A DNA stretch of 64,000 nt, taken from positions 62,001-126,000 of the forward strand of contig NZ_PVZV01000010.1 of NCBI RefSeq assembly GCF_002995495.1, in the 5' to 3' direction. Origin of the DNA: Actinocorallia populi (GTDB lineage Bacteria; Actinomycetota; Actinomycetes; Streptosporangiales; Streptosporangiaceae). The notes below the pieces were generated by a model, which saw only the letters and a program-made list of their open reading frames with translations, searched no databases and was not told the DNA's origin. The translations under genes and the position numbers were made by a program. Positions 24,572 to 42,084 of the stretch are shown here, one piece after another. Position 1 is the first letter of the stretch; each line of letters starts with the position of its first letter.

Positions 24572-24596
24572 GGGAGCCTCCCTGGGGTCGTGGGGG

Positions 24597-26844: not shown

Positions 26845-27883
26845 GGGCTCCTGCGGTGATCGGGCCGTACCCCTCGGTCAGCAGGCACGCGGCGGACCGT
26901 CCCGGCGCGACCGGGCGCGGCTCGGGACGGGTGGACAGGCACACCTCGTGCACGCTCGGGCAGCGGGCCGCGAACGCGCAGCCGGCCGGGCTCTCGGCGG
27001 GACCGGGCGGGCGCCCCTCGATGGTGTGCAGCCGCTCGCCCGGCTCGTGGGAGCCGGGGGCCGAGCGCAGCAGCGACCAGGTGTAGGGATGGCGCGGGCG
27101 GGACAGGACCTCGGCGGTCGGCCCGGCCTCCACGACCTCGCCCGCGTACATCACCACCAGCCGGTCGGCCAGGTCGGAGATCACGTCCAGGTCGTGGGTG
27201 GCGATCACGATCGACAGGCCGAGCTCGCGGTTGAGCTCCCTGAGCAGCTCCAGGATCTGCGCCTGGGTCGTCACGTCCAGCGCCGTGGTCGGCTCGTCGC
27301 AGAACAGCACGGACGGCCCGGCCACCAGCGCCATCGCGATGACGATGCGCTGGGACTGGCCGCCGGAGACCTCGTGCGGGTAGGAGTCCATCCGGGAGGC
27401 CGGTTCGGGGATGCCGACCCGGGCCAGCATCCGCTCGGCCAGCTCGCGGGCGGCTTCGCGCGACAACGACGGGTCGGCGGTGCGCGCCGACTCGACCAGC
27501 TGCGCGCCGATGCGCTTCATCGGGTGCAGCGACCGCCACGGGTCCTGGAACACCAGCCGTGCCCGCTTGGCCCGCAGCCCGCGCAGCTCGCGCCTGGGCA
27601 TGGCCAGCACGTCCTGGCCGTCCAGGATGATCGTCCCGTCCACCCGCGCGCCGGGGGGCAGCAGCCGCAGCGCCGCCATGATCGATGTCGACTTGCCCGA
27701 CCCCGACTCCCCCGCGAGCGCCACGATCTCGCCCTTGGCGACGTGGAAGGTGGCGTCGCGGATGATCCGCAGCAGCCCCTTGCCGGTCGGCAGCGTCACC
27801 CGGACGTCCTTCATCACCAGGGCGTCCTGGCGGAAGCCCTCCGGGGACGGCGCCGCCGCGGTCTCCAGCAGTCCCTCGCTCAC
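26834..27883 (-). CDS. ABC transporter ATP-binding protein, DppD/OppD type
   Basis: A 349-residue ATPase with Walker A GESGSGKST, signature VSGGQSQRIVIAMAL and Walker B VLFCDEPTTALD, then the oligopeptide-type tail GCAFAARCPSVHEVC. The GTG at 27883 is chosen over longer frames because it overlaps the methyltransferase stop as GTGA and leaves a normal-length domain. It forms a heterodimer with the DppF-type subunit. Confidence 0.92.
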   Translation of the reverse strand: MSEGLLETAAAPSPEGFRQDALVMKDVRVTLPTGKGLLRIIRDATFHVAKGEIVALAGESGSGKSTSIMAALRLLPPGARVDGTIILDGQDVLAMPRRELRGLRAKRARLVFQDPWRSLHPMKRIGAQLVESARTADPSLSREAARELAERMLARVGIPEPASRMDSYPHEVSGGQSQRIVIAMALVAGPSVLFCDEPTTALDVTTQAQILELLRELNRELGLSIVIATHDLDVISDLADRLVVMYAGEVVEAGPTAEVLSRPRHPYTWSLLRSAPGSHEPGERLHTIEGRPPGPAESPAGCAFAARCPSVHEVCLSTRPEPRPVAPGRSAACLLTEGYGPITAGARDE

Positions 27884-28983
27884 GTCGACTCCTCCTTCTC
27901 CACCGGGCGGCGGGCGAAGGTCACCCACGGGTAGCCCCCGGGGCCGAGTGCCTGCTGCCGCACCTCGGTGAACCCCGCCTCCTTCGCCGTCTCCACCAGC
28001 TCGGCCGTGGCGGTGCTCCGCCACCACGGCTCGTTGCCGTTCTCCGCGTCCCAGTCGTCCAGCCAGGCCTGGTAGGGGGCCCGTTCGCGGTAGGGCGCGA
28101 CGTCGGAGAACACCAGGTCCCCGCCCGGCCTCAGCAGCCGGAACGCCTCGGCGAAGATCCCGCGTATCGCGTGCGGGGGGACCTCGTGCAGCAGGATGAA
28201 CGAGGTCACCAGGTCCTGGCTCCCGGTCGGCAGACCGGTGTCCTCGGCCGGGGCCCGCACCAGGTCCCAGGCCAGACCGCGGTCGGCGGCACGGCGCTGG
28301 GCGTAGCGCAGGGCGGTGAGGGACAGGTCCACCCCGGTGACGCGGGCGCCGGGAAACCGCTCGGCCAGTTTGAGCGTGTACTGGCCGGTGCCGCAGCCGA
28401 GGTCGCAGACGGCGGTGTAGTCCGTCCGCGGCGCCGCGGCCGCGACCTCCGCCCGCTGGCGGAAGATGTCGCCGTACGCCGGCACCAGCAGGTACCGGTA
28501 GACCAGCTCATGGTGCACGAACCCCATGTGCTCGTGGCCGTCCCAGCCGCCGGTGGTGCCGTGGAACTCATACCTCCAGTACCGCGGCACCACCTCTTCT
28601 CCCCGGTCGAGGATCGCCGCGGGATCCGGCGCCTCCGCGAACTCCGCCAGCTCAGCGCGCTGGGCCTGGAAGGCCGCGGCGGCGCGCGGGGTCAGGGAGC
28701 GGCGGCCCCAGCGCAGCGCGGCGCCGATCACGGCCTGGTCGGCGGAGCCCGCCAGGGCGCGCTCCGCCGCCGCGCGCAGGTCGTCGATCCGCGGCTCCGG
28801 CGCGTCCGCCCACGCGGCGGCCTCGGGGGAGGCCTCGATCCGGGCCTTGACCCGGGCCCGCAGCGGGTCCAGCGCGGCCCGCTGCGCGGCCAGGAACTCC
28901 AGTTCGGCACGGCCGCGCTGGTGCAGCCGGACGTCGGGGTTCATGCCGTCGGGGACCCGCGCGGCGATCTCGTCCCGGGTCAA
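27880..28983 (-). CDS. Class I SAM methyltransferase (copy 1)
   Basis: A 367-residue methyltransferase. An all-helical N-terminal region of about 130 residues leads to the unusual block TTGGWDGH (143-150) and then YRYLLVPAYG. The Rossmann methyltransferase domain starts at VCDLGCGTG (motif I, 192-200) and continues through DLVTSFILLHEVPP and LLRPGGDLVFSD. The start is a TTG at 28983, supported by a perfect AAGGAGGT seven bases upstream, inside the end of the substrate-binding-protein gene. The methyltransferase at 30834-31892 shares the GGWDGH block, so the two form a small family. The methyl acceptor is unknown; placement within an importer operon suggests an imported small molecule. Confidence 0.85.
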   Translation of the reverse strand: MTRDEIAARVPDGMNPDVRLHQRGRAELEFLAAQRAALDPLRARVKARIEASPEAAAWADAPEPRIDDLRAAAERALAGSADQAVIGAALRWGRRSLTPRAAAAFQAQRAELAEFAEAPDPAAILDRGEEVVPRYWRYEFHGTTGGWDGHEHMGFVHHELVYRYLLVPAYGDIFRQRAEVAAAAPRTDYTAVCDLGCGTGQYTLKLAERFPGARVTGVDLSLTALRYAQRRAADRGLAWDLVRAPAEDTGLPTGSQDLVTSFILLHEVPPHAIRGIFAEAFRLLRPGGDLVFSDVAPYRERAPYQAWLDDWDAENGNEPWWRSTATAELVETAKEAGFTEVRQQALGPGGYPWVTFARRPVEKEEST

Positions 28984-28986
28984 GGG

Positions 28987-30540
28987 TCAGACCTCCTTGG
29001 CCACGGAGTCGAGCAGGAGCATCAGGCCGTTGCTGTTGTCGAACCCGGTCACGCCGTCCCGGTAGCCGCCGACGGTGGGGCCGCCGTAGGTGTAGAGGAC
29101 GTAGGCCTGGTCGTTGAGGTACCGGGCGCACTCGATGAGCTTCTTCTCGCGCTTCGCGGGGTCCATCTCGGTGCGCTCGGCCTTCAGCAGCGCGTCCCAC
29201 TTCGCGTCCTCGACGAACGGCTTCTTGGACGAGGAGACGTGCCCGTACATGCGGTCCGCGTCGAAGATGCCGGTGTAGGAGCCGCCCCGGTAGAAGACGT
29301 GGGCGTCGGAGCCGTTGCGGAACGACTGCACCCAGACCGGGACCTCCACCGAGGTGATCTTCGGCTTGAAGCCGGCCTCCTGGAGCTGCGCCCCGACCGC
29401 CTCGAACAGCTTCTTGTAGAGGTTCATGCCGAAGATCTCGATCTCGGCGCCCTCGGCCCCCGCCTCCTTGAGGAGGCTCTTGGCGCCCTCGAGGTCGTAG
29501 GCCGGGCGGGTGATCGACGGGGTGTACCCGAAGACGCCCTCCACCGCGACCTGGCCGTCCTCCAGCAGGCCGGCGCCGTAGGTCAGCGCCTGCATCAGGG
29601 CCGGGGCGTCGATCGCCTTGACCGCGGCCCGGCGCACCCGCACGTCGTCGAAGGGGGCCTTGGTGGTGTTCAGCTGGAACATGTTCTGGTTGCCGCTGAA
29701 GTCGGCGGCGACCGTGAGGCCGCCCACGCCCTCCAGCGTCTTCAGGCTCTCGGCGCTGAGGTTCTGCGCGGCGTCGATCTCCCCCGCCTCCAGCGCCGAG
29801 GCGAGCGCGCCGGGGTCGGTGAAGTACCGCAGGAAGATCTCGGACGTCTTCGGCTTGCCACCGTAGAAGCCGTCGAACGCGGCGAACTCGATGCCCCGGT
29901 CCACCCCGAAGCTGTTGATCTTGAACTGGCCGGAGCCGATGGGGGCGGCGTTGAAGCCGTCCTCGCCGACCTTCTTCCAGTGCGCCTCGGGCACCACGAA
30001 GACCTGGCCGAGCCGGGCCAGCAGCAGCGGGTCGGGCGCGTTGGTCTCGATCCGCAGCGTGGTGGCGTCGACCTTGCGCACGTCCTTCACGCTGGTGAGG
30101 AACATGGTGCCGGCGTACTGCTTGGCCGTGACCTCGGTGAGGCTGAAGACGACGTCGTCGATGGTGACCGGCGAGCCGTCGTGGAACGTGACGCCCTGGC
30201 GCAGCTTGAACGTCCAGACGGTGTCGCTGGTGCGCGTCCACTCCTCGGCCAGGCGCGGCGCGGCCTCGGAGGCGCCGCGCAGCCGGCGCACCAGCGTGTC
30301 GAAGGCGTTGAACTGGAAGGTGGTGTACTGCTCGTTCATCGGGTTCAGCGTGTCGTCCACGATGACCGTGCCGATGGTCAGCAGGGAGGCCTTGGAGCCG
30401 CCCTCGCTGGAGGCGCCCGGACCGCCGCACGCGCTCAGCGCGCCGCCGGCCGCGATCAGGCCGCCCAGCGCCAGGCCGCCGCGCAGGAAGTTCCGGCGGT
30501 CGATCGCCCGGCCCTGGCCGGAGAGGAAACTCTTGCTCAC
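28987..30540 (-). CDS. ABC transporter substrate-binding lipoprotein, family 5
   Basis: A 517-residue peptide/opine/nickel-type solute-binding protein. The N-terminus carries a twin-arginine-like motif (DRRNFLRGG, Arg15-Arg16) and a lipobox LSAC with Cys38, so it is probably exported folded by Tat and lipid-anchored outside. Family-5 features include LAEEWTRTSDTVWTFKLRQG and VTFHDGSPVTIDDVVFS. The GTG start has AAGGAA upstream. It determines what the importer captures; family 5 covers peptides, sugars, opines and aromatic conjugates, so the ligand cannot be stated. Confidence 0.92.
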   Translation of the reverse strand: MSKSFLSGQGRAIDRRNFLRGGLALGGLIAAGGALSACGGPGASSEGGSKASLLTIGTVIVDDTLNPMNEQYTTFQFNAFDTLVRRLRGASEAAPRLAEEWTRTSDTVWTFKLRQGVTFHDGSPVTIDDVVFSLTEVTAKQYAGTMFLTSVKDVRKVDATTLRIETNAPDPLLLARLGQVFVVPEAHWKKVGEDGFNAAPIGSGQFKINSFGVDRGIEFAAFDGFYGGKPKTSEIFLRYFTDPGALASALEAGEIDAAQNLSAESLKTLEGVGGLTVAADFSGNQNMFQLNTTKAPFDDVRVRRAAVKAIDAPALMQALTYGAGLLEDGQVAVEGVFGYTPSITRPAYDLEGAKSLLKEAGAEGAEIEIFGMNLYKKLFEAVGAQLQEAGFKPKITSVEVPVWVQSFRNGSDAHVFYRGGSYTGIFDADRMYGHVSSSKKPFVEDAKWDALLKAERTEMDPAKREKKLIECARYLNDQAYVLYTYGGPTVGGYRDGVTGFDNSNGLMLLLDSVAKEV

Positions 30541-30549
30541 GTTCGTTCC

Positions 30550-30837
30550 TTATGCGTCGAGGGCCGCGACTGCGGCCTTCACCCGGGTGTCGGAGTCGAG
30601 GACCGCCCCGAACACGCGGCCCACGAGGGCCTCGCGCTCCCGGCGCAGTCGGGCCAGCAGTTCTTCGGACGGCCGCAGTTCGTCCACGGCGGCGGGGTCG
30701 AGGCAGCCCCGTTCGGCCAGCAGGTGCTCCAGCACCAGCGTGCGGTCCTTGAGGATCCACAGCTCGGAGGTCAGCTCGGCGACCATGCGGGCCAGGTCGT
30801 CCAGCCGGGCCGAACCGAGGTAGGTCTGGTCGCTCAC
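30550..30837 (-). CDS. Small helical protein of unknown function (copy 2)
   Basis: A 95-residue charged, helical protein paralogous to that at 25520-25804. The core ELWILKDRTLVLEHLLAER spans about residues 25-43, and a second match is PSEELLARLRRER against PGPELSARLAADR. The GTG start overlaps the stop of the methyltransferase gene (GTGA) and has AAGGAGG seven bases upstream. It is translated directly after methyltransferase copy 2, which makes a complex with that enzyme the simplest guess. I do not recognise a described family. Confidence 0.75.
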   Translation of the reverse strand: MSDQTYLGSARLDDLARMVAELTSELWILKDRTLVLEHLLAERGCLDPAAVDELRPSEELLARLRREREALVGRVFGAVLDSDTRVKAAVAALDA

Positions 30838-31892
30838 AGGTTCCCCTCCTTGCGTCCGCGGACGATCCACGGGTAGTCGCCCCTGTTCAGGCCGTAGGCC
30901 TTGACGTCGGTGAAGCCCGCCTCCTCCATCAGGGACGGCAGGTCGAGCTGCAGGTAGGAGCGCATGAACGGCTCGCCCCGGTGCTCGGTCTCCCAGTCCA
31001 GGACCACCGACCGGAAGGCGCCGTTGCGCTCGAAGGGCGCGATGTCGCCCATCACCAGGTCGCCCCCGGGCTCCAGCACCCGGAACATCTCCCGGAGGAT
31101 CTCCTTCGTCGCCGTCGGCGGAGTCTCGTGGAAGAGAGTGAAGATCGACACCAGGCCGACCGAGGCGTCCGGCAGGCCGGTCCGCTCGGCCGGCGCCTGC
31201 AGGAGCGTCCAGTCGTACCCTTCGTGCACCGCGCGGGCGCGGGCGTAGCGCAGCTGGGTCTCCGACAGTTCGATCCCGATGGTCTCGCTGCCGGGGAACA
31301 CCGCGGACAGCGCGGTCAGCATGCGCCCGTTGCCGCAGCCGACCTCCAGGACGGTGCGGTAGTCACGGCGCGGCGCCTCCATCGCCACCTGGGTGCGCTG
31401 GTCCATGAGGTTCTCGCCGGTGCGGACCGCGCCGACGCCGCCGGGCATGAGCACGTAGCGGTAGCCCAGGTCGTGGATGACCACGCCCATCAGGTCGTGG
31501 CCGTCCCAGCCGCCGGTCGTCAGGTGGAACCCGGCGTGGAAGTAGGCGGGCACGTCGGCGGCGGGATTCAAGGTCAGCGAGCCGGGGGCGTCCTCGGGGA
31601 CGTCCAGCCACTCCTCGATCGCCGCGCGGGACTCCTCGGCCGCCGGGATGGCGCGGACGTAGATCTCCTCGGCCACGTAGCGGGTGAAGAGGCGGTCGAA
31701 GAGCCAGGGGCCGTGGTCGCCCAGCCTCTCGTTCACCGAGCGGCGCCGGTCGGCCAGTTCCGCGGGGGGCTCGGTCTCCAGCTGCGCGTACCGCTCGGCG
31801 GCGGCGGCCTGGAGCACTCCCCCGGCGTAGCCCTGGAGCGCGCCGAGGAAATCGAGTCCCGCACGGGACCTCTGCTTCACGGGGACGTCCAA
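30834..31892 (-). CDS. Class I SAM methyltransferase (copy 2)
   Basis: A 352-residue methyltransferase with the same layout as the protein at 27880-28983: a helical N-terminus, the block LTTGGWDGHDLMG (about 124-136), YRYVLMPGG, then motif I VLEVGCGNGR (181-190), LVSIFTLFHETPP and VLEPGGDLVMGD. The start is taken as TTG at 31892 because AAGGAGGT stands about five bases upstream; the next in-frame candidate, GTG at 31880, is too far from it. It follows the flavin monooxygenase by 35 bases, and a regulator-type palindrome (31903-31919) overlaps its ribosome-binding site. Hydroxylation followed by O-methylation would be a natural sequence, but this is inference. Confidence 0.85.
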   Translation of the reverse strand: MDVPVKQRSRAGLDFLGALQGYAGGVLQAAAAERYAQLETEPPAELADRRRSVNERLGDHGPWLFDRLFTRYVAEEIYVRAIPAAEESRAAIEEWLDVPEDAPGSLTLNPAADVPAYFHAGFHLTTGGWDGHDLMGVVIHDLGYRYVLMPGGVGAVRTGENLMDQRTQVAMEAPRRDYRTVLEVGCGNGRMLTALSAVFPGSETIGIELSETQLRYARARAVHEGYDWTLLQAPAERTGLPDASVGLVSIFTLFHETPPTATKEILREMFRVLEPGGDLVMGDIAPFERNGAFRSVVLDWETEHRGEPFMRSYLQLDLPSLMEEAGFTDVKAYGLNRGDYPWIVRGRKEGNL

Positions 31893-31902
31893 GGGAACCT
31901 CC

Positions 31903-31919
31903 TTCTCACAATGTGGAAA
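31903..31919. promoter_or_regulatory. Third copy of the IclR-type palindrome
   Basis: TTCTCACAATGTGGAAA matches the sites at 33200-33216 and 34293-34309 and is the most symmetric of the three. It lies between the monooxygenase and methyltransferase genes and overlaps the methyltransferase ribosome-binding site. No convincing -35 is seen, so it may control an internal start or act as a roadblock. Confidence 0.55.
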
Positions 31920-31927: not shown

Positions 31928-33178
31928 TCAAGCAGGAATGTGGGTGTCCCGGGAGACACGGGAGGCGAGCATCGAGGAGCGCAGCAGGTGCGCCCGCGCC
32001 AGTTCCGGGTCCGCCGCCGTACGGCGCATGTGCTCGTTCCGGCGCCGCCGCTCGGCGGGGTCCTCCTCGCGGAGCATGTCCCGGTTCTCGTGGGTGACGA
32101 CCCGCACGTAGTCGTGCGCGACGGACCTGCGCGCCTCTTCGTAGGCGTCGAGCGGCGCGGTGTCCCCGGCCTCCGCGACCAGGATCGCCTCGGCCGCCAT
32201 GGCGGCGTCGTGGATCCCGCTGTTCATGCCCATGCCGCCGAGCGGGTTGTTGAGGTGGGCGGCGTCGCCCGCCAGCAGCACCCTGCCCACGCGGAACCGC
32301 TCGGCGACCCGCTGGTGCACCCGGTAGATGCGGGAGTGCACCACGTCGTAGCCCTCGGGGCAGGGGGCGATGGCCTGGAGGCGCTGTTGGATCGTTCCGA
32401 CATCGAGCGCGTCGGCGGCGTCCTGCTCGCCCGGCGGGATCGGGAAGAGCGCCCGCCAGTGCAGCGGGGTGCGCAGCAGCACCAGCCACTCGCGCGGGTC
32501 GGAGATGTAGTTGACCGAGGCGAGACCGGGGATGAGCTCGGCGAAGTCGACGTTGGTGGAGACCACGAGGAACTGCTCGGGGTAGGTGATGCCGGGGAAG
32601 CCGATGTCCAGCGCGTGCCGGATCGGGCTGTGCGCGCCGTCGGCGGCGATCACCCAGCGGGCCCGGTACCCGACCGCCGGGGCGTCGGGGTCGGCCGACC
32701 CGGCGACCCGGACGACGGCCTCCTCGCCGTCGGTCTCGGCCGAGCGGACGTGGGCGTTCTCGAACAGCAGGACGTTCGGCATTTCGGCGAGCCGGTCGCG
32801 GATGATGCGGACCAGGTTCTGCTGCTCGCTCTGCAACCGGTACGGGAAGGGGGTGTCGCCGGCGATCTCGGCCAGGTCGAAGTGGGCGATCAGCCCCTCG
32901 GCGCGGTCCCGGTACTGGTAGGTGTCCGACACCAGGCCGACCTCGTGCAGCGGGGCGGAGACGCCCAGACCGTCCAGGATCTCCAGGGTCGGCGGGTGGA
33001 ACGTCGAGGCCCGCGACTCGCCCAGGACGCCGTCCCCGGCCAGGCCCGCCTCGAAGACGGCGACCCGGAGCCCGCCGAGGGCGAGCTTGAGCGCCGCGGT
33101 GGCGCCCACGGGACCGAGACCCACGACGACGACGTCGCAGTCCTCCGGCGGCCGGGAAACGTGGAAACCGAGAAGCAC
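31928..33178 (-). CDS. FAD-dependent monooxygenase (aromatic hydroxylase type)
   Basis: A 416-residue class A flavoprotein monooxygenase (PHBH/UbiH fold). It has the N-terminal VVVGLGPVGATAALKLA, the DG motif IAADGAHSPIRHALD and the GD motif LLAGDAAHLNNPLGGMGMNSGIHD. It is about the length of 6-hydroxynicotinate 3-monooxygenase and 4-hydroxybenzoate hydroxylase and lacks the extra thioredoxin-like domain of phenol hydroxylases. The GTG start has GGAGG upstream. It is the first gene of the ten-gene operon and probably starts attack on an imported aromatic or N-heteroaromatic ring. Confidence 0.9.
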   Translation of the reverse strand: MLLGFHVSRPPEDCDVVVVGLGPVGATAALKLALGGLRVAVFEAGLAGDGVLGESRASTFHPPTLEILDGLGVSAPLHEVGLVSDTYQYRDRAEGLIAHFDLAEIAGDTPFPYRLQSEQQNLVRIIRDRLAEMPNVLLFENAHVRSAETDGEEAVVRVAGSADPDAPAVGYRARWVIAADGAHSPIRHALDIGFPGITYPEQFLVVSTNVDFAELIPGLASVNYISDPREWLVLLRTPLHWRALFPIPPGEQDAADALDVGTIQQRLQAIAPCPEGYDVVHSRIYRVHQRVAERFRVGRVLLAGDAAHLNNPLGGMGMNSGIHDAAMAAEAILVAEAGDTAPLDAYEEARRSVAHDYVRVVTHENRDMLREEDPAERRRRNEHMRRTAADPELARAHLLRSSMLASRVSRDTHIPA

Positions 33179-33199: not shown

Positions 33200-33243
33200 C
33201 TCTCACACTGCGGTAACCATGCACTCGAGATGCGGGAACGCTA
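33200..33243 (-). promoter_or_regulatory. Monooxygenase operon promoter with tandem operators
   Basis: On the minus strand TAGCGT (33243-33238) is the -10; its -35, TTGACT, is at 33266-33261 with 17 bases between. The palindrome CTCTCACACTGCGGTAA (33200-33216) lies 22 bases from a degenerate copy, CACTCGAGATGCGGGAA (33222-33238), which abuts the -10. Two sites two helical turns apart, covering the transcription start, fit repression by an IclR tetramer. Confidence 0.7.
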
Positions 33244-33328
33244 GCTAGCAGAAGACGGCAAGTCAATGCTTTCCGGACAAGGATTAACCTGCCGATAACA
33301 CAAGGAGGTCGGCGGAGAGCAGCCGAAA

Positions 33329-33352
33329 CACCGGCGCAACACGGCGCCGGTG
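33329..33352 (-). terminator. Hairpin after the central iclR gene
   Basis: CACCGGCGC and GCGCCGGTG pair perfectly (nine bases) around a six-base loop, 48 bases beyond the iclR stop, followed on the minus strand by GTTTCGG. It separates iclR from the monooxygenase promoter. Confidence 0.6.
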
Positions 33353-33399
33353 CGGGGAAACGGAGGTTCCGCCGCGCGGAAACGCGCGGGGGAAGCGGC

Positions 33400-34212
33400 T
33401 CAGCCGCGGTGCGCGCGGTCCACGAGGAGCTTGGAGATGTCCGCCGCGCCGGAGACCACCAGGTCGATGATCCGGGCGCGGTCGGCGTGCTGCAGCCGGA
33501 AGAGGGGGCCGGCCACCCCGAGCGCGCCGACCACCTCGGCGCCGTCCCTGATCACGGCCGAGGCGCCCCAGATGCCCTCGTCCACCTCGCCGAAGCTCTC
33601 CAGCCAGCCCAGCCTGGCCACGGTGTCCACGTCGGCCCTGATCTGCTCGCGCTCAGGCTGGGCGATCTGGGTCATCGCCGCCAGGTAGCGCTCGCGCTCG
33701 GCCGCCTTCATGGAGGCCAGCAGCACCCGGGAGGCCGAGCCCTGGTGCAGGATCATCGGCTGGCCCTTGTCGAACTGCAGCCGCACCGGGTGCGAGGACT
33801 CGACGCGGTCCACGCAGATGGCGCTCCAGCCCACCCGCTTGATCAGGAGGGTGGTCTCACCGCCGGCCTCGGCCACCGCGCGCAGCACCGGCTGGGCCAA
33901 TACCTCCAGGGAGTCGCCGGCCTCCCGCGCGGCGCCGGCCAGGCTGACGAACCGCCAGCTCAGCCGGTACTCCCCCGGCCTGGCCTCCTCGACCAGGCCC
34001 TCCTCGCGCAGGACCGACAGGTAGCGGTAGACCGAGCTGATCGGCATGTCCAGCTCGGCGGCCAGCTCGGCGGCGGAGCGGGTGTGCCGCTGCGGGCTGA
34101 AGGCCAGCAGCAGGTGCAGCACCTTGCGCGAGCTCTCCGCGCCGCTGCGCCGGGAGGAGCGGCCCTGCCCCGGCACTGCGGGGGATGCGTCCGCGACGGC
34201 TTCCTCGGACAC
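33400..34212 (-). CDS. IclR family transcriptional regulator
   Basis: A 270-residue IclR protein. The helix-turn-helix lies near residues 42-75 (RSAAELAAELDMPISSVYRYLSVL), and the effector domain has GETTLLIKRVGWSAICVDRVES, HQGSASRVLLASM and the late GALGVAGPLFRL. The GTG start follows AAGGAGG by four bases. It sits between the two operons whose promoters share a 17-bp palindrome, so it is the obvious regulator of both. IclR repressors usually release DNA on binding an aromatic or small acid ligand. Confidence 0.92.
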   Translation of the reverse strand: MSEEAVADASPAVPGQGRSSRRSGAESSRKVLHLLLAFSPQRHTRSAAELAAELDMPISSVYRYLSVLREEGLVEEARPGEYRLSWRFVSLAGAAREAGDSLEVLAQPVLRAVAEAGGETTLLIKRVGWSAICVDRVESSHPVRLQFDKGQPMILHQGSASRVLLASMKAAERERYLAAMTQIAQPEREQIRADVDTVARLGWLESFGEVDEGIWGASAVIRDGAEVVGALGVAGPLFRLQHADRARIIDLVVSGAADISKLLVDRAHRG

Positions 34213-34240
34213 ACCGCCTCCTTCGGTCCGGCGACCCCGC

Positions 34241-34309
34241 TTGACCTTGGCCGGGGTCGGGATCTAGCTTGTCTCACATAACAATAAACACTCTCTCACA
34301 CTGCGGGAA
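34241..34309 (+). promoter_or_regulatory. Dabb-nitrilase operon promoter with tandem operators
   Basis: TTGACC (34241-34246) and TAGCTT (34265-34270) are 18 bases apart. CTCTCACACTGCGGGAA (34293-34309) differs at one of 17 positions from the site at 33200-33216. A half-matching copy starting GTCTCACA (34271-34287) lies exactly 22 bases before it and abuts the -10, the same arrangement as at the monooxygenase promoter in mirror image. Confidence 0.72.
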
Positions 34310-34349: not shown

Positions 34350-34643
34350 ATGATGCGGCACATCGTCCTGTTGCAGTGGACCGAGACGGCCACCGATCAG
34401 CAGAAGCGAGAGGCGGAGACAGCTTTCCACAACTTGGCAGCCAGGATTCCTGAGATCCTGGACATTTTTTGCGGGGCCGACCTCGGGCTCACCGGCGGCG
34501 CGCACGACTTCGCCGCCGTGCTCACCTTCGCGGACGTCGAAGGCTGGCGCGCCTACCAGGAGCACGAGGCGCACAAGGCGCTGGTCGCCGACCACCTGAA
34601 GCCGATCCTCGCCGGCCGCTCCGTCATCCAGTTCGATGCCTGA
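34350..34643 (+). CDS. Dabb family (stress-responsive A/B barrel) protein
   Basis: A 97-residue ferredoxin-fold dimeric barrel protein. Typical features are the start RHIVLLQW, the central DLGLTGGAHDFAAVLTFAD and the end HEAHKALVADHLKPIL. Members range from stress proteins of unknown action to small catabolic cyclases and decarboxylases. GGAGGAA precedes the first of two ATG codons (34350, 34353). Its end overlaps the next gene by eight bases, so it is part of the catabolic operon. Confidence 0.85.
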   Translation: MMRHIVLLQWTETATDQQKREAETAFHNLAARIPEILDIFCGADLGLTGGAHDFAAVLTFADVEGWRAYQEHEAHKALVADHLKPILAGRSVIQFDA

Positions 34644-35292
34644 CCGGGCCGGACAGGCCCCCGCCCTCGACGAGCTCGCCGACGACTACCGGCGGGCGGG
34701 ATTCGGCGGAAGCCTCGATCCGGGCAGGCGGCCCGCGCTGGTCGTCGTCGACCTCGTCCGCGCCTACGTCGATCCGGAGTCGCCGCTGTACGCCGGGGCC
34801 GAGCGGGCCGTGGAGCAGTCCGCGCTGCTGGTCCGCCACGCCCGCGCGCTCGGGCACCCGGTCGTCTTCACCTATGTGGAGTACGCGCCCGGCGGCGCCG
34901 ACGGCGGCCTCTTCTACCGCAAGGTGCCCGCGCTCCGGCTGTTCGAGCGCGGATCGCCCTGGGGGGAGCCGCCCGAGGAGCTGGTGCCCGGCCCCGGCGA
35001 CCTGGTGGTCGTCAAGAAGTACCCGTCGGCGTTCTTCGGCACCGGCCTGGCCTCCACGCTGACCGCGCTGGGCGTCGACTCGGTGGTCGTCACCGGGACG
35101 AGCACCAGCGGCTGCGTCCGCGCCACCGCGCTCGACGCGCTGTGCCACGGGTTCCGGCCGGTCGTGGTGTCCGACGCCGTCGCCGACCGCGACCCCCGGC
35201 CGCACGAGGCGGCGCTGTTCGACCTGGCCGCCAAGTACGCCGACGTCCAGGAGGCTGCCAAGGTACTGGAGTCATGGAAGGAAACGACATGA
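34636..35292 (+). CDS. Isochorismatase-family cysteine hydrolase (amidase type)
   Basis: A 218-residue cysteine hydrolase. The catalytic triad can be placed: Asp39 (LVVVDLVRAY), Lys127 or Lys128 (VVVKKYPSAFFGT) and Cys160 (TSTSGCVRATA). This arrangement, with the GC.R segment, is that of N-carbamoylsarcosine and maleamate amidohydrolases rather than true isochorismatases. It would release ammonia from an amide or carbamoyl group. Overlaps with both neighbours tie it to the operon. Maleamate amidohydrolase is an attractive guess given the maleate-isomerase-like gene downstream, but not proven. Confidence 0.87.
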   Translation: MPDRAGQAPALDELADDYRRAGFGGSLDPGRRPALVVVDLVRAYVDPESPLYAGAERAVEQSALLVRHARALGHPVVFTYVEYAPGGADGGLFYRKVPALRLFERGSPWGEPPEELVPGPGDLVVVKKYPSAFFGTGLASTLTALGVDSVVVTGTSTSGCVRATALDALCHGFRPVVVSDAVADRDPRPHEAALFDLAAKYADVQEAAKVLESWKETT

Positions 35293-36176
35293 CCCCTCTG
35301 AACGTCCACCCCGCCGACCGGCTGCGCGCCCGGCTCGCCGCCGGAACCCCGCTCCTGGCCGCCGGCTGCCACGACGCGCTCTCCGCCCGGCTCGCCACGC
35401 AGGCCGGATTCGAGGCGATCCACCTGTCGGGCGCGCTGGTCAGCGCCGTCACCTTCGGCCTGCCCGACCTGGGCTACGTCGGCGCGAGCGACATGGTCGA
35501 CGCGCTGCGCCGGGTCTCCGCGGGCACCGACCTGCCGGTCATCGCCGACGCCGACACCGGCTACGGCGACCCGCTCCAGGTGGCCGAGACCGTCCGCCGC
35601 TACGAGCGGGGCGGGGCCGCGGCCCTCCACCTGGAGGACCAGGTCATGCCCAAGCGCTGCGGCCACATGGCGGGCGTGCGGCTGGCGGGCCTGGCCGAGA
35701 CCGTGGCCCGGCTGCGCGCCGCGGCCGACGCGCGGGAGCGGCTGGTGCTCATCGCCCGCACGGACGCCCTGAACGCCGAGGGCGAGGACGAGGCGCTGCG
35801 CCGGGTCGAGGCGTTCGCCGCGGCCGGCGCCGACGCGGTCTTCGTCGAGGGCGCCCGGGACGCCGCCACCGTCCGCCGGGCGCACGAGGCCTCCGGCGGG
35901 CTGCCGGTCGTCGTGAACTTCTCCGCGGCCGGGCACTCGCCCGAGCCGATCGACGACCTGGCCGCGGCCGGAGCCCGCATCGCGCTCTTCCCGGTGGCCG
36001 CCGCGCTCGCCGGGGCCGCCGCGATGAGCGCGGCCTACCGCGAGATCCTCACCGTCCGCCGCGCCCCCGAGCCCCCGCTCAGCTGGGGGGACTTCACCAC
36101 CGTCCTGGGACTGCCCGCCCTCGCCGAGCAAGAGGAGCGCTGGCGTCCCGCCGCCGACCCCGGGGAGACCCCGTGA
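35289..36176 (+). CDS. Isocitrate lyase/PEP mutase superfamily lyase
   Basis: A 295-residue lyase of the ICL/PEPM superfamily. Metal-binding DADTGYGDP and the loop LEDQVMPKRCGHMAG are present; the catalytic cysteine in KRCGH marks it as a C-C lyase (methylisocitrate or 2,3-dimethylmalate lyase-like) rather than a phosphonomutase. The ATG at 35289 is preferred because it overlaps the previous stop (ATGA) and has AAGG upstream; an ATG five codons earlier is possible. It would split a 2-hydroxy dicarboxylate to pyruvate or glyoxylate plus a small acid, the likely exit of the pathway into central metabolism. Confidence 0.88.
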   Translation: MTPLNVHPADRLRARLAAGTPLLAAGCHDALSARLATQAGFEAIHLSGALVSAVTFGLPDLGYVGASDMVDALRRVSAGTDLPVIADADTGYGDPLQVAETVRRYERGGAAALHLEDQVMPKRCGHMAGVRLAGLAETVARLRAAADARERLVLIARTDALNAEGEDEALRRVEAFAAAGADAVFVEGARDAATVRRAHEASGGLPVVVNFSAAGHSPEPIDDLAAAGARIALFPVAAALAGAAAMSAAYREILTVRRAPEPPLSWGDFTTVLGLPALAEQEERWRPAADPGETP

Positions 36177-36916
36177 CCACCGTCCTGGCCGACCGCCACG
36201 CCTTCGGCGTGATCATTCCCTCCACCAACACCGCGGTGGAGGACGAGTACTACCGGTTCCGCGCACCCGGCGTGTCCTTCCACGCCGGACGCATCCTCAT
36301 CCGCAACGCCGTCCTCGACTCCGACGAGGACATGGAGAACTTCCTGGAGGACCTGCGCGGCGAGATCGGCGCCGCGGTGGAGTCCGTCCTGACCTGCAGG
36401 CCCGACTCCCTCATCATGGGGATGAGCGCCGAGACGTTCTGGGGCGGCGCCGAGGGCAACGCCGAGTTCGAACGCTGGATCGGCGAGATGTCCGGCCTGG
36501 ACGTCGTCACCGGCGCGTCCGCGACCCACGCGGCGCTGCAGCGGTTCGGCGTGCGCAGGATCGGCGTGATCACCCCCTACCAGCCCGTCGCCGACGAGCA
36601 GGTGCGCGCCTACTTCACCGAGCTCGGCTACGAGGTGCACGCCGTGCACGGCCTGAAGTGCGGCTCGGCGACCTCGATCGCCGAGGTGCCGCCGGAGGAG
36701 ATCCGCGCCGCGTTCGCGAAGGTCGACGGGCCCGGTGTGGAGGCGCTCGTCCAGGCGGGCACCAACCTGCCGGTCATCGGCGTGGCCGCCGCGGTGGAGG
36801 AGGAGATCGGCAAGCCGGTCGTCCCGATCAACGCCGCGTCCCTCTGGCACGCCTACCGGACCCACGGCATCAAGGACCGCATCCCGGGCGCCGGCCGGCT
36901 GCTCGCGACGCTCTAG
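36173..36916 (+). CDS. Asp/Glu racemase superfamily protein, maleate-isomerase-like
   Basis: A 247-residue protein with the maleate isomerase/arylmalonate decarboxylase fold. The N-terminal PSTNTAVEDEYY (16-27) is the substrate-binding loop of that group. The two positions where maleate isomerase has its paired cysteines appear as MGMSAE (82-87) and VQAGTNLP (193-200), neither with cysteine. The only cysteines (75 and 163) lie elsewhere. It therefore either uses another chemistry or only binds ligand. The GTG start overlaps the previous stop (GTGA). My alignment is by eye. Confidence 0.8.
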   Translation: MTTVLADRHAFGVIIPSTNTAVEDEYYRFRAPGVSFHAGRILIRNAVLDSDEDMENFLEDLRGEIGAAVESVLTCRPDSLIMGMSAETFWGGAEGNAEFERWIGEMSGLDVVTGASATHAALQRFGVRRIGVITPYQPVADEQVRAYFTELGYEVHAVHGLKCGSATSIAEVPPEEIRAAFAKVDGPGVEALVQAGTNLPVIGVAAAVEEEIGKPVVPINAASLWHAYRTHGIKDRIPGAGRLLATL

Positions 36917-36929
36917 AAAGGAAGAAGAG

Positions 36930-38618
36930 ATGGCGAAGGTACGGGTCGCAGCGGCCCAGTTCTTCTCCGGGCCGGACCCGCTGGCCAACCTGGAGCTGGC
37001 CGCCGGATACGTCCGCGACGCGGCGGCGCAGGGGGCCAGGCTGGTCGTCCTGCCCGAGAACGCCAACCGGGTGCGCGACTTCTCCTCCCGCGAGGAGTGC
37101 TGGGAGCACTCCGAGGACCTCGACGGCCCGTTCGTGACGGGCCTCGCCGGGCTCGCCGCGGAGCTCGGCGTGTACATCGCGGCGGGCGTCGACCTGCGCG
37201 GCGAGAGCTCGCCGACCGTGTACATCGGGTCCGTCCTGCTCGGGCCCGACGGCCGTGTCGTCGGCGTCCACCACAAGCACGTCCTGTGGGACTACGAGTA
37301 CACGCTCTTCACGCCCGGCGACGAGCCCTACCGGGTGTACGACACCGAGCTCGGCCGGATCGGGCTGCTGCTGTGCGCCGACGGGATCGTCCCCGACACC
37401 CCGCGCGCGCTCGGCCTGCTCGGCGCGCAGATCCTGTGCAACTCCCTCAACTCCCGCGGCCCCGACGAGTACCGCGTGCACGTGCCGCTGCGCTCGATGG
37501 AGAACCGCGTGTGGCACGTCGCGGCCAACACCGTCGGCGGCCCCGAGCACGAGTGGCCGTGGATGGGCGGCAGCCAGATCGTCGCCCCCGACGGCACCCG
37601 CCTCGCCGACGCCGGTGAGGAGGAGCCGGGCCTGGCGATCGCCGACATCGAGCCGGAGCTGGCGGACGACAAGCACATGGCGGGTGTGGGCGACGTGTTC
37701 GCCTGGCGGCGTCCCGACCTGTACGGCGTGCTCACCCGCCCGCTCGAGGAGGTCCCGGCCGCGGCCATGTACGGGCCCGCCCCCGCGGACATGCCGCCGC
37801 GCCCGCTGCCCGTCGCGCTGCTGCAGGTCAGCTGGTCCCGCAACACCGAGTGGACGGTGCTGCGCGCGATCGGCCAGGTCACGTTCGCGGGCAGGCGCGG
37901 GGCGCGGCTCGGCGTGCTGCCCGAGCTGTTCTGCCTGCGGCCGGGCGAGGCCGCGCAGGACCCCGAACGTGCTGCGGGCCTGTCGCGCGACGTCCTGCAG
38001 CGGCTCTCCGCCTCCTGCGCGGAGGCGAAGTTGTGGCTGGCCGCCAACCTGGTGGAGGCCGAGGACGGGAAGTACTACTCGACCGTCTACCTGCTGGACG
38101 ACACCGGCACCGTCGTGCACCGCTACCGCAAGACCCACCTGACCGACGAGGACCGCGCCTGGGCGACGCCCGGCTCGGACCTGTCGGTCGCCGACACCCC
38201 GATCGGCCGCATCGGCTTCATGGTCGGCGAGGAGGTCTGGGTGCCGGAGGTCGCGCGGGTCCTGGCCGTCGAGGGCGCCGAGCTGATCGTCCACCCGACG
38301 TCCTGGACGACGCCCGAGGCCATGCACGTCGCGGCCACCGAGCGCACCGAGGAGAACCGCGTCCACCTGGTCTCGGTGACCCGCCTGGACTGCCCCGCCG
38401 GCCTGGGCAGCCAGATCGTCCGCGCCGACGACTTCCAGCCCGGCCAGCCCATCGCCGTGATGCGCTACCCCACCGGCTACTGGACCCGTCCCGGCTTCGA
38501 GGAGCAGCTCCTGCTCGACCTCGACCTGCGCGAGTCCAACGACAAGATGATGGGGTACCACCTCGACCCCCTGGCCACCCGGGCGCCGCGGCTCTACGGC
38601 TCCTTCACCGCGACCTGA
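36930..38618 (+). CDS. Double-domain nitrilase-superfamily hydrolase
   Basis: A 562-residue protein made of two carbon-nitrogen hydrolase domains (about 1-285 and 292-562). The first has the complete triad: Glu43 (VLPENA), Lys116 (HHKHVLW) and Cys149 (LLLCADG). The second keeps Glu332 (VLPELF) and Lys401 (YRKTHLT), but the cysteine position reads GFMVGEEVW with Gly433, so it should be inactive. Usual family members have one domain of about 270-330 residues. The ATG follows GGAAGAAGAG, 13 bases after the previous gene. It probably hydrolyses an amide, nitrile or carbamoyl group as the last step of the operon, with the second domain structural or regulatory. Confidence 0.88.
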   Translation: MAKVRVAAAQFFSGPDPLANLELAAGYVRDAAAQGARLVVLPENANRVRDFSSREECWEHSEDLDGPFVTGLAGLAAELGVYIAAGVDLRGESSPTVYIGSVLLGPDGRVVGVHHKHVLWDYEYTLFTPGDEPYRVYDTELGRIGLLLCADGIVPDTPRALGLLGAQILCNSLNSRGPDEYRVHVPLRSMENRVWHVAANTVGGPEHEWPWMGGSQIVAPDGTRLADAGEEEPGLAIADIEPELADDKHMAGVGDVFAWRRPDLYGVLTRPLEEVPAAAMYGPAPADMPPRPLPVALLQVSWSRNTEWTVLRAIGQVTFAGRRGARLGVLPELFCLRPGEAAQDPERAAGLSRDVLQRLSASCAEAKLWLAANLVEAEDGKYYSTVYLLDDTGTVVHRYRKTHLTDEDRAWATPGSDLSVADTPIGRIGFMVGEEVWVPEVARVLAVEGAELIVHPTSWTTPEAMHVAATERTEENRVHLVSVTRLDCPAGLGSQIVRADDFQPGQPIAVMRYPTGYWTRPGFEEQLLLDLDLRESNDKMMGYHLDPLATRAPRLYGSFTAT

Positions 38619-38678: not shown

Positions 38679-39713
38679 TCACACCCCTTCGGGCGGCGGG
38701 GCCGTGCTCTTGCGGACGACGAGGCTGGTGGACAGCTCCAGCCGGGTGGGCGGCCTCTCGCCGTCGCGCAGGCTCAGCAGCATCTGGGCGGCGGCCTCGG
38801 CCATCTCGCGCAGCGGCTGGTGGACGGTGGTGAGGGCGGGGCTGGCCCAGGGCGCCACCGCCACGTCGTCGTAGCCGACGACCGACAGGTCGTGCGGAAC
38901 GCGCAGGCCGTGCACGCGCGCCGCCTCCAGGACGCCGAGGGCCTGCAGGTCGCTGCCCGCGAAGATCGCCGTCGGGCGGTCGGGGCGGCCGAGCATCTCC
39001 AGCGCGTGCCGGTAGCCGCCCTCGACGTGGAAGTCCCCGTAGGCCACCAGGCCAGGGTCCACCGCCAGGCCCGCCATGCCCATCGCGGACCGGAACCCGT
39101 CGAGCCTGGCCAGCGAGCACAACATGTCGTCGGGTCCGGTGATGATCGCGATCCGCCGGTGGCCGCACTCGATGAGGTGGCGGGTCGCGGCGACCCCGCC
39201 CGACCAGTTGGCCGACCCGACCGACGGCACGTCCGGCTCGGGGTCGCCCGCCGGGTCGATGATGACGAACGGGATGGACCGCGAGCGCAGCTGGTGCTTG
39301 AACTCCGGCGGGAGGCTGGAGAAGACCAGGACGACACCGAGGGGGCGGCGGCGCAGCACCCCGTCGAGCCATTCGGGTCCGGGCGCGTGCCGGGTGCCGC
39401 TCTCGGTGAGCACCACGCCGGCGGCGTGGGCCTTGGCGACGCCCTCCACGCCCCGGATCAGCTCCATCGCCCAGAGGCTGTCGAGCTCGTGGAAGACGAG
39501 CTCGATCAGCGGCGCCTCACCCGCCGATCCGGGTGTCCTGCGGTAGCCGTGGAGCTCCAGGAGGCGCTCGACCCTGGCCCGTGTCGGCCGTGCCACGTCC
39601 TGGCGGCCGTTGAGAACTTTCGAAACTGTCGAAACAGAGACTCCGGCTTCGTCCGCCACCTGGGCCAGGGTGACCCGGGCCGTTTCATCCTCCGCACGCA
39701 TGGGCAGCAGCAT
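38679..39713 (-). CDS. LacI family transcriptional regulator
   Basis: A 344-residue LacI-type repressor. The helix-turn-helix is VTLAQVADEAGVSVSTVSKV near residue 14, and the hinge and periplasmic-binding-like effector domain follow (IAIITGPDDMLCSLARLDGF, AIFAGSDLQALGVLEAARVHG, VVGYDDVAVAPWASPALTTV). The start may be ATG 39713 or ATG 39701. It is divergent from a sugar importer/beta-glucosidase operon, which it most likely represses until a beta-glucoside or its sugar is present. A good candidate operator (39616-39627) lies within its own helix-turn-helix codons. Confidence 0.92.
   Translation of the reverse strand: MLLPMRAEDETARVTLAQVADEAGVSVSTVSKVLNGRQDVARPTRARVERLLELHGYRRTPGSAGEAPLIELVFHELDSLWAMELIRGVEGVAKAHAAGVVLTESGTRHAPGPEWLDGVLRRRPLGVVLVFSSLPPEFKHQLRSRSIPFVIIDPAGDPEPDVPSVGSANWSGGVAATRHLIECGHRRIAIITGPDDMLCSLARLDGFRSAMGMAGLAVDPGLVAYGDFHVEGGYRHALEMLGRPDRPTAIFAGSDLQALGVLEAARVHGLRVPHDLSVVGYDDVAVAPWASPALTTVHQPLREMAEAAAQMLLSLRDGERPPTRLELSTSLVVRKSTAPPPEGV
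39616..39627. promoter_or_regulatory. Possible LacI-type site inside lacI
   Basis: ACTTTCGAAACT has the central CG of LacI-family operators and resembles the site at 39826-39839 in sharing CTTT(T)CGAAA. It falls in the codons for the recognition helix, so coding constraint could explain it. Confidence 0.25.
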
Positions 39714-39760
39714 AGGCCACCCCGCGCCGTCCAGCGTCTCTCTTCGGCCATGGCGCGGGG

Positions 39761-39789
39761 TTGACCGTGGAGGGAACGCGTTCTAGTGT
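39761..39789 (+). promoter_or_regulatory. Promoter of the sugar importer operon
   Basis: TTGACC (39761-39766) and TAGTGT (39784-39789) are 17 bases apart. A perfect palindrome, GAACGCGTTC (39774-39783), with the CG centre usual for LacI proteins, fills the spacer next to the -10. Confidence 0.72.
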
Positions 39790-39825
39790 CCCGGGTCACA
39801 AGGATGTTTCGGGGGAGCTTCCGAA

Positions 39826-39839
39826 ACTTTTCGAAAGGT
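39826..39839. promoter_or_regulatory. Candidate LacI operator at the leader
   Basis: ACTTTTCGAAAGGT is an imperfect palindrome with a CG centre, six bases before the ATG of the binding-protein gene and overlapping its ribosome-binding site. With the palindrome at 39774-39783 (52 bp away, about five helical turns) it could allow looping. Confidence 0.5.
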
Positions 39840-39844
39840 CTGCA

Positions 39845-41143
39845 ATGAAGAGACGCACCTGGCTCACCCGGGCCGTCGCCGGTGGCACCGCCCTCGCCCT
39901 GAGCCTGGCCCTCACCGCCTGCGGCGGCGACTCCGGCGGCGAGGAGGGTGGGGAGATCCGCATCCTGGTGTACGGGGACACCGCCAACAAGGTCGAGACC
40001 AAGCTCGTCGAGACGTTCAACAGGACGTCCGACGTCAAGGCGGTCCTCGACACCATCCCGGGCGCGGACTACCAGGCGAAGCTCCAGACGGTGATCAGCT
40101 CCAAGCAGGCGCCCGACGTCTTCTTCAACTGGGGCGGCGGCAGCATCCAGCCGTTCGTGAAGGCGGACCTGCTCATGCCGCTCGACGACCTCATCGCCAA
40201 GGACCCCGCGCTGAAGTCCAGCTTCCTGCCCTCGGTGTTCGACACCGCGGTCGTCGACGGCAAGCCGTACGGCGTCCCGATGCGCGGCACCCAGCCCGTC
40301 CTGCTGTTCCACAACAAGAAGGTCCTCGCCGACGCGGGCGTCTCCGCGCCGACGACCTGGGACGAACTGCTCGACGCGGTCGCGAAGCTCAAGGCGAAGG
40401 GGATCACGCCCATCGCACTCGGCGGCGGCGACAAGTGGCCCACCCAGATGTGGTTCCAGTACGTCTACGACCGCGTCGCCGGACCCGACCTGTTCAAGCG
40501 GGCGGTCGGCGGCGACACCGCCGCGTGGGAGGAGCCCGACAGCCGCAAGGCCCTCGAGACGCTGCGGCAGCTGATCGACGCCGGGGCCTTCGGCACCAAC
40601 TTCGACTCGGTGAAGTTCACCGACGACGGCTCCCCCGCCCTCCTCGCGCGGAGCAAGGCCGGCTTCGAGCTGATGGGCTCCTGGGCCTACTCCACCCACC
40701 AGAGCCTCGACCCCGAGTTCGCCGAGAAGGACCTCGGCTACAGCGCCTTCCCCGCCATCCCCGGCGGCAAGGGCGACCCGGCCAACATCGTCGGCAACAC
40801 CAACAACTTCTACTCGGTGCTGAAGGCCACGAAGCACCCCGAGGCCGTCGCGGAGTTCCTGAAGCTCCAGTACTCCGACGAGTTCGTCAAGGAGCACCTG
40901 GCCATCGGCAACCTCCCCACCACCACGAACACGCCGCAGTTCCTCGACACCTCGGCCAGCCCCGAGTACGCGAAGTTCCAGTTCGGCCTGGTGGAGAAGG
41001 CCCCCGCCTTCCAGCTCTCCTGGGACCAGGCGTACCCGCCCGCGGCGACGACCCCGCTGCACCGGGCCGTCCAGGGGTTCTTCAACGGGAGCATCGACGC
41101 CGACGGGTTCATCAAGGCCATGCAGGCCCTGCCCAAGCCCTGA
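39845..41143 (+). CDS. Sugar ABC transporter substrate-binding lipoprotein, family 1
   Basis: A 432-residue extracellular carbohydrate-binding protein. A basic signal peptide (MKRRTWLTRAV) ends in the lipobox LTAC with Cys26, followed by a short glycine/serine linker. Family-1 features include the hinge segment YGVPMRGTQPVLLFHNKKVL and DELLDAVAKLKAKG. The ATG at 39845 follows GAAAGG. It captures a sugar, probably an oligo-beta-glucoside given the GH3 enzyme in the operon, and passes it to the two permeases. The ATPase is not encoded here, so a shared MsiK-type ATPase is likely, as is usual in actinomycetes. Confidence 0.93.
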   Translation: MKRRTWLTRAVAGGTALALSLALTACGGDSGGEEGGEIRILVYGDTANKVETKLVETFNRTSDVKAVLDTIPGADYQAKLQTVISSKQAPDVFFNWGGGSIQPFVKADLLMPLDDLIAKDPALKSSFLPSVFDTAVVDGKPYGVPMRGTQPVLLFHNKKVLADAGVSAPTTWDELLDAVAKLKAKGITPIALGGGDKWPTQMWFQYVYDRVAGPDLFKRAVGGDTAAWEEPDSRKALETLRQLIDAGAFGTNFDSVKFTDDGSPALLARSKAGFELMGSWAYSTHQSLDPEFAEKDLGYSAFPAIPGGKGDPANIVGNTNNFYSVLKATKHPEAVAEFLKLQYSDEFVKEHLAIGNLPTTTNTPQFLDTSASPEYAKFQFGLVEKAPAFQLSWDQAYPPAATTPLHRAVQGFFNGSIDADGFIKAMQALPKP

Positions 41144-41154
41144 CGGGACCGTCC

Positions 41155-42084
41155 ATGACCTCTCTCACCGCGGCCTCCGCGGGCAGGCTCCGGGCCGCTC
41201 GGCGGCCCGGAGCCGCCTCCTCCCGCCCGGGGTTCCTCTGGGCGCTGCCCGCCACCGTCTTCTTCGCCCTGTTCGCCCTCGTCCCGCTCGTCCTCGTCGC
41301 CGTCCTGTCCTTCACCGAGTGGAACGGCCTGGGCGATCCGGTCTTCGTCGGCATGGACAACTGGTCGGCGCTGCTGGACGACCCCGTCATGCTCAAGAGC
41401 GTGTGGCTGAGCCTGCTGCTCACCGCGCTCGGCGTCGCGTTCCAGACGCCGTTCAGCATCCTGCTGGGCGTGTGGGCCGCGGGGAAGCAGCGCAACCGCG
41501 CCGTGCTTTCGGCGATCTACTTCATCCCGCTGCTGCTGTCGGCCACCGCCATCTCGGTGTTGTGGCGGTCGCTGCTCGACCCGAACTTCGGCGTCCCCGC
41601 CGAGGCCGAGTGGCTGTTCGGTGACGGCAACCTCTTCGGCTCGCAGAGCGGGGCGCTCGCCGTCCTCGTCTTCGTCGGGGTCTGGCAGTTCACGCCGTTC
41701 CACACGCTGATCTACCAGGGGGCGGCGCGCGCCATCCCGCAGGTGCTCTACCAGGCGGCGGAGATCGACGGGGCGGGGCGGGTGCGCAGGTTCCTGCACA
41801 TCACCCTGCCGCAGCTGCGCAACGCCATCGTCACCTCGGTGATCCTCATGGTCGTCGGCGGGCTGACGACCTTCGACATCGTGCTCATCCTCACCCAGGG
41901 CGGGCCGGGCACCGACACCACGATCACCGCCTACTACATGTACGACAAGGCGTTCAAGGGCTTCCAGTTCGGCGCCGCCTCGGCCGTCTCGCTGGTGCTC
42001 GTCGTGACCGCCACGCTCATCTCCCTCCTGGTCGTACGGCTGTCCGGCTACGACCGGATGCGCGGAAGCACGGAGGGCCTGTGA
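41155..42084 (+). CDS. Sugar ABC transporter permease, MalF-like
   Basis: A 309-residue permease with about six membrane helices. The first is WALPATVFFALFALVPLVLV, and the coupling loop is YQAAEIDGAGRVRRFLHITLPQL, the EAA motif of MalF/UgpA-type proteins. It follows the binding-protein gene by 11 bases and overlaps the next permease gene at GTGATG. Confidence 0.93.
   Translation: MTSLTAASAGRLRAARRPGAASSRPGFLWALPATVFFALFALVPLVLVAVLSFTEWNGLGDPVFVGMDNWSALLDDPVMLKSVWLSLLLTALGVAFQTPFSILLGVWAAGKQRNRAVLSAIYFIPLLLSATAISVLWRSLLDPNFGVPAEAEWLFGDGNLFGSQSGALAVLVFVGVWQFTPFHTLIYQGAARAIPQVLYQAAEIDGAGRVRRFLHITLPQLRNAIVTSVILMVVGGLTTFDIVLILTQGGPGTDTTITAYYMYDKAFKGFQFGAASAVSLVLVVTATLISLLVVRLSGYDRMRGSTEGL

Follow-up and report, generated by a model that had tools for sequence, protein, structure and literature searches.

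Gene Organization of the Locus

The window analysed, a stretch of 64,000 nucleotides from Actinocorallia populi, carries a gene for an IclR-family regulator between a left operon on the minus strand and a right operon on the plus strand, with a second IclR-family gene beyond the far end of the left operon:

22755-23585, plus strand: second IclR-family regulator, facing the distal end of the left operon
23645-28027, minus strand: remainder of the left operon, with two permeases (23645-24571 and 24597-25523), a small open frame (25520-25972) and two ABC ATPases (open frames, 25801-26844 and 26834-28027)
27880-28983, minus strand: SAM methyltransferase 2
28987-30540, minus strand: extracellular solute-binding protein (family 5) belonging to the importer
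30550-30870, minus strand: small conserved protein of 106 aa
30834-31922, minus strand: SAM methyltransferase 1 (open frame)
31928-33178, minus strand: FAD monooxygenase that heads the left operon, with PnpA and HspB as its closest solved chains
33400-34212, minus strand: IclR-family regulator (IclR_C and HTH_IclR domain matches)
34350-34643, plus strand: Dabb-domain protein, heading the right operon
34636-35292, plus strand: isochorismatase-family amidohydrolase; nearest solved chain N-carbamoylsarcosine amidohydrolase
35289-36176, plus strand: methylisocitrate/dimethylmalate-lyase-like enzyme; nearest solved chain 2,3-dimethylmalate lyase
36173-36916, plus strand: maleate-isomerase/arylmalonate-decarboxylase-like enzyme; nearest solved chain a putative maleate isomerase
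36735-38618, plus strand: two-domain carbon-nitrogen (nitrilase-type) hydrolase (open frame), last gene of the right operon

The assignment of the regulator at 33400-34212 to the IclR family is given by scores of 43.4 bits for PF09339 (cut-off 22) and 70.9 bits for PF01614 (cut-off 24). Methyltransferase 1 is likely to start at a TTG near 31890, as judged from the N-terminus of its relatives, and the true start of the carbon-nitrogen hydrolase probably lies further in than 36735. The 106-residue protein has no Pfam or NCBIfam match; several relatives hold a second, weaker match to it behind their ABC ATPase genes. The right operon extends as far as an oppositely oriented LacI-family gene, which belongs to a region (38679-42902) with an ABC importer made up of a family 1 solute-binding protein and two permeases.

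The lower pathway of nicotinate and pyridine degradation employs a maleamate amidase and a maleate isomerase. The isochorismatase-family amidohydrolase, the maleate-isomerase-like enzyme and the HspB/PnpA-like FAD monooxygenase of the window resemble that pathway, to which the window adds the methylisocitrate/dimethylmalate-lyase-like enzyme, the two-domain nitrilase, the Dabb protein, two methyltransferases and the importer. From these likenesses we infer that the gene set may encode a catabolic pathway for a nitrogen-containing ring ending in maleate-like acids. Among the NCBIfam matches listed for ten proteins (for the monooxygenase, 25 of 65 weaker matches), none reached an equivalog cut-off, and these matches include no equivalog-level enzyme match to a maleamate pathway of the nicotinate type.

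Putative Twin Operators in the Window and the Genome

The promoter regions at the heads of the two operons share a common arrangement:

33200-33216, minus-strand transcription (17-mer given in plus-strand letters): strong operator dyad of the monooxygenase promoter, CTCTCACACTGCGGTAA
33222-33238, minus strand: degenerate partner dyad of the monooxygenase promoter, CACTCGAGATGCGGGAA, over the expected transcription start
33238-33266, minus strand: monooxygenase operon promoter, TTGACT (33266-33261), 17 bp, TAGCGT (33243-33238)
34241-34270, plus strand: Dabb operon promoter, TTGACC (34241-34246), 18 bp, TAGCTT (34265-34270)
34271-34287, plus strand: degenerate partner dyad of the Dabb promoter, GTCTCACATAACAATAA, 22 bp upstream of the strong copy
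34293-34309, plus strand: strong operator dyad of the Dabb promoter, CTCTCACACTGCGGGAA

The initial annotation had described two 17-mers with 16 of 17 bases alike, each accompanied by a degenerate copy, and both letters and coordinates were confirmed, with the two 17-mers read on the plus strand. Each degenerate copy lies 22 bp from its strong copy, upstream in the sense of transcription, and equals it at 11 (33222) and 10 (34271) of 17 positions. The -10 boxes TAGCGT and TAGCTT abut the degenerate copies as described, TAGCGT overlapping the copy at 33222 by one base, and in mirror image the layouts do agree within a base, the distance from the end of the -10 box to the middle of the strong copy being 30 bp for the first and 31 bp for the second. 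The term palindrome is right in kind but loose: the dyad correlation of a 21-site matrix is 0.47, a value equalled by 1% of column permutations.

With up to three mismatches allowed, a scan of the window returned two matches against a shuffle mean of 0.27, and since two were reached by 5 of 100 shuffles, the evidence of the window is weak on its own. In the complete 8.25-Mb genome the two operators are the sole sites within two mismatches; the 19 matches in total, 17 others being at three mismatches, compare with 25 for the reversed pattern. The twin pattern is real, and it is its conservation, described below, that is decisive. Further members of the regulon elsewhere in the 8.25-Mb genome found no support. 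An exact match to a looser palindrome at C8:298235 was set aside, being one of 178 matches with up to two mismatches against 253 in the control.

Conservation of the Operators

Of 341 genomes of the family, 13 have an ortholog of the IclR protein at E 1e-55 or better, and that of the window is one of them. In 10 of the other 12, iclR adjoins the monooxygenase and the right-hand genes, and in G301, whose IclR is 45% identical, just the monooxygenase, the lyase and a Dabb homolog are found near it. The exact pattern TCTCACANTGYRGKAA gave 25 matches in 14 of the 341 genomes, compared with a single match of the reversed control. Twenty-two of these flank iclR and one lies in the monooxygenase promoter of G278, which places 23 at the cluster; the remaining two, in G040 (inside an open frame) and G334, lie outside it and were read as chance. 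The exact motif is present in 12 of the 13 genomes with an IclR ortholog and in 2 of the 328 without one (Fisher p about 3e-19, a value overstated, as the genomes are related and not independent). A broader pattern applied to the 12 relatives returned 23 zero-mismatch sites, all 23 at the cluster and spread over 11 genomes (none in G301), and 14 one-mismatch sites versus 17 in the control. With the zero-mismatch sites all at the cluster and the one-mismatch sites at control level, the regulon looks local.

The scan of related genomes that the initial annotation had proposed thus found the 17-mer together with its 22-bp partner upstream of monooxygenase orthologs and of the right-hand operon. 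In two loci (L031 and L033, from G270 and G271) no Dabb or amidohydrolase homolog was detected at the cluster; here the right operon begins with the lyase gene, and the operator stands ahead of that gene. The site before the monooxygenase of Nocardia jinanensis (L025) is two mismatches from the scanned string. In L042, with an IclR that is 45% identical, the exact motif is absent, and two diverged dyads lie exactly 22 bp apart behind a TTGACG box. A distant set comprised nine IclR relatives from other families. Three of its loci (L074, L075 and L077), from one distant small-genome genus, show dyad pairs 22 bp apart near a monooxygenase relative, one of the dyads in L075 being weak, and a fourth locus of that genus, L082, has a single dyad upstream of the monooxygenase. 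Dyads in L080 and L081 are weak, and none were found in L085, L087 and L088, the contig of the last starting 31 bases before the monooxygenase match, with the promoter outside it. As a side observation, the genomes behind L082, L083, L084 and L086, which belong to another family and are small (1.0-1.7 Mb, 60-100% complete), have retained a 43% identical IclR and a monooxygenase relative accompanied by operator-like dyads.

Promoter Layout and Probable Mode of Action

Promoter-like boxes of the form TTGACN-N17-19-TAnnnT are present in all 14 left and all 12 right regions, a count in which the near copies L034 and L035 are both included, and in all 26 they end 28-34 bp ahead of the centre of the strong dyad. 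The form was picked after the alignment had been viewed, with spacers of 16 to 19 searched, and its background amounts to 1 in 20000 random 100-base stretches and 4 in 2556 stretches of the window. A strict promoter scan found no promoter, and the -10 boxes are weak. On the opposite strand, where the promoter of iclR itself is expected, the box pair occurs in 1 of 12 regions.

The spacing of the dyads was examined over 103 offsets. L035, which nearly duplicates L034, entered neither the matrix nor this test, and the matrix was built without L042 and L057. On average, -22 was the best offset for a second, weaker dyad on both sides (z 5.0 and 5.5), and it took the top rank in 9 of the 13 regions on the left and 9 of the 11 on the right. 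In L038, L040 and L041, where this offset ranks 23, 3 and 62 of 103, the far dyad of the left side is poor.

If transcription starts about 7 bp past the -10 box, the dyad centres fall near +2 and +24, which is a blocking position; as both dyads overlap or follow the expected start, repression is the likely mode. The IclR protein of 33400-34212 would thus act as a local repressor of both flanking operons. A pair of its dimers, probably as one tetramer, would bind the two dyads of each promoter, 22 bp or about two helical turns apart, the weak one (centre about +2) over the expected start and the strong one (centre about +24) after it. So bound, the protein would block RNA polymerase from opening or escaping the promoter until a compound of the pathway releases it, whereupon both operons would come on together.

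The same operators could in principle serve activation, given that some IclR-family regulators of aromatic catabolism, such as PcaU and PobR, are activators. Known activators of this family, however, bind upstream of the promoter, whereas the strong dyad lies downstream of a -10-like box and a TTGAC-type -35-like box in 26 of 26 regions. An IclR that binds these sites and activates both operons is therefore improbable, and repression is the reading followed below.

The Probable Reader of the Motif

One relative offers a natural test of whether the motif tracks the regulator or the order of genes. In G278, some 2.1 Mb separate iclR from the cluster, and both operators are still found at the divergent enzyme promoters; the distant iclR is itself preceded by a dyad with three mismatches. 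Along these lines, 30 loci out of 53 monooxygenase matches were compared over 420 bp upstream. All 12 loci from genomes with an IclR ortholog have a site score of at least 15, as opposed to 18 of 18 from genomes without one, in which nothing exceeded 2.2. The 18 negative monooxygenases are 48-53% identical and stand in other settings, so that they are a control for the protein family and not strict orthologs; an IclR-family gene of 29-30% identity is present at two of these 18 loci.

The second IclR-family protein (22755-23585) was considered as the reader of the 17-mers on the grounds that it lies in the window, adjoins the left operon, and has a counterpart of its type (E 1e-50 or better) in every one of the 12 genomes whose cluster carries the motif. 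That type is, however, present in 69 of 341 genomes, 57 of which are without the cluster motif, as compared with 12 of 13 genomes that have the motif for the first IclR. Moreover, the importer genes of L038-L041 have a relative of the second IclR as their neighbour, and the divergent promoter there carries a different palindrome. A palindrome of about TGTTCCA-N5-TGGAACA is conserved at this importer/methyltransferase promoter, as seen by eye in four aligned sequences (L038 17540-18080, L039 17300-17830, L041 17430-17960 and L040 1800-2310). Within the window its pattern gave two matches, both with three mismatches and reached by 10 of 100 shuffles, and no good copy. On the basis of co-occurrence and of the different palindrome the second IclR was rejected as the motif reader, a role for which we would give it very little chance. 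The comparison supports the view that the motif follows the IclR of 33400-34212, whose helix stretch SSxYRYL is retained by 12 of 17 aligned IclR orthologs, that of the window among them; the second IclR has a different sequence there.

That the twin copies involve no regulator at all, but go back to duplication of a promoter segment that chance or linkage at the DNA level has preserved, would agree with the modest support from the window noted above. Yet the surrounding sequence differs, whereas the dyad, its spacing and the promoter boxes have been preserved among IclR orthologs of 53-73% identity. Furthermore, the order of the two halves of the strong dyad, read in the direction of transcription, is reversed between the promoters, as would suit a symmetric dimer, and the sites are present in G278 without linkage to iclR. 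Such a duplication has next to no chance of being the explanation. With the same conserved switch at both gene groups, one regulator very probably controls both, and the initial proposal that this IclR represses the two operons gains support from conservation, spacing, co-occurrence and the unlinked iclR of G278. At a rough probability of 0.83, the IclR of 33400-34212 represses both flanking operons via the tandem dyads, a judgement made from sequence in which binding, repression, release by a ligand and operon continuity are the inferred parts.

Comparison with Known IclR Systems

In the survey by Suvorova and Gelfand (2021, PMC8222616), the group 1 operator of IclR proteins is a 17-bp dyad with the core YCRY-W3-RYGR, and tandem dyads with 18-22 bp between their centres are reported for 94 ortholog groups. 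Site centres lie mostly at -20 to -80 from the gene start, and the regulons are mostly small, many of them serving aromatic catabolism and transport. The spacing of 22 bp in the window falls within this tandem range, in agreement with the group 1 rule (PMC8222616). The core is matched at 10 of 11 positions by both strong window sites, which have C and not W at the centre, and at 11 of 11 by a third site described below. The outer bases of the two sites, however, are neither GKT/AMC nor those of a subgroup listed in PMC8222616. The WTT-11-AAW subgroup consensus is matched by the third site at 16 of 17 positions and by the two strong sites at 13; with 13 of 17 the strong sites were placed in no named subgroup. 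Another difference from the group 1 tandems as presented there is that one dyad of each window pair is strongly degraded. As the same dyad core and tandem spacing appear in PMC8222616, the type of control is already known and the cluster is a further case of it; this ortholog group may already be included in the supplementary tables of that study. The same source gives a similar dyad, GTTCMRYATMRTGAWS, for NpdR of Rhodococcus opacus, likewise an actinobacterial IclR protein of a pathway for a nitrogen-containing aromatic compound, but its outer bases differ and it serves the trinitrophenol pathway.

No published account of the present regulon was among the papers listed in literature searches. 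For TtgV, which controls an efflux pump, repression is modelled as the cooperative binding of a tetramer to two sites. The window IclR shows a weak sequence match to its solved chains (2xrn and 2xro, E 1e-7); the operator sequence of TtgV is unlike that of the window, as is its efflux pump target. What the locus provides is an uncharacterised catabolic gene set tied to one regulator, with exact candidate operators given, and a two-promoter reporter could be used to seek the inducer and the products of the cluster.

Extent of the Regulon and Additional Sites

The initial annotation had counted 15 genes in one regulon. Ten genes in the left operon and five in the right do add up to this number, provided the small open frame is a gene. 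One regulon of 15 genes is plausible in the window, where it depends on unbroken operons, a continuity suggested by the short gaps between genes; the methyltransferase and importer part varies between lineages, so that the count does not carry over as a whole. In L033, a methyltransferase and the small gene stand behind the nitrilase-type gene, still downstream of an operator, and in L038-L041 the methyltransferases and the solute-binding protein stand apart, beside a second IclR. The constant core among the ten family relatives with a linked cluster consists of the monooxygenase and the lyase, isomerase-like and nitrilase-type enzymes.

A further site, absent from the initial annotation, was found within the left operon:

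31903-31919, minus strand: third site, an operator-like dyad standing alone, TTTCCACATTGTGAGAA, which covers the methyltransferase 1 Shine-Dalgarno sequence

It differs by four substitutions from CTCTCACACTGCGGKAA and scores 26.1, as compared with 27.9-33.7 for the 21 matrix sites and with 21.5 for the best site in 8 Mb of random sequence. When the pattern was widened to fit it, the genome held exactly three zero-mismatch sites, all in the cluster, a count which is not independent for the third site, as the widened pattern was written after that site had been seen. No evident partner dyad or promoter accompanies it, and the methyltransferase junctions of L032, L034, L035 and L036 show no counterpart. 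It might, as a guess, be a roadblock or a fine-tuner. A more elaborate scheme can be put forward tentatively and is itself unlikely: one IclR repressor with three operators, namely two tandem pairs and a lone dyad at a ribosome binding site, would set the enzymes and the methyltransferase/importer genes of an undescribed pathway for a nitrogen-containing ring at different levels, with an extra dyad in the stem of the iclR terminator in some relatives.

Operator-like palindromes are also seen near the end of iclR in several relatives. In L034 (9331), L035 (5904) and L036 (9710), a strong hairpin directly follows iclR, its loop and inner stem being formed by such a palindrome, and a T-rich stretch comes next, which would place an operator inside a likely terminator. 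In L032, a third zero-mismatch operator (10306-10322) comes soon after the iclR stop codon, in addition to both promoter operators.
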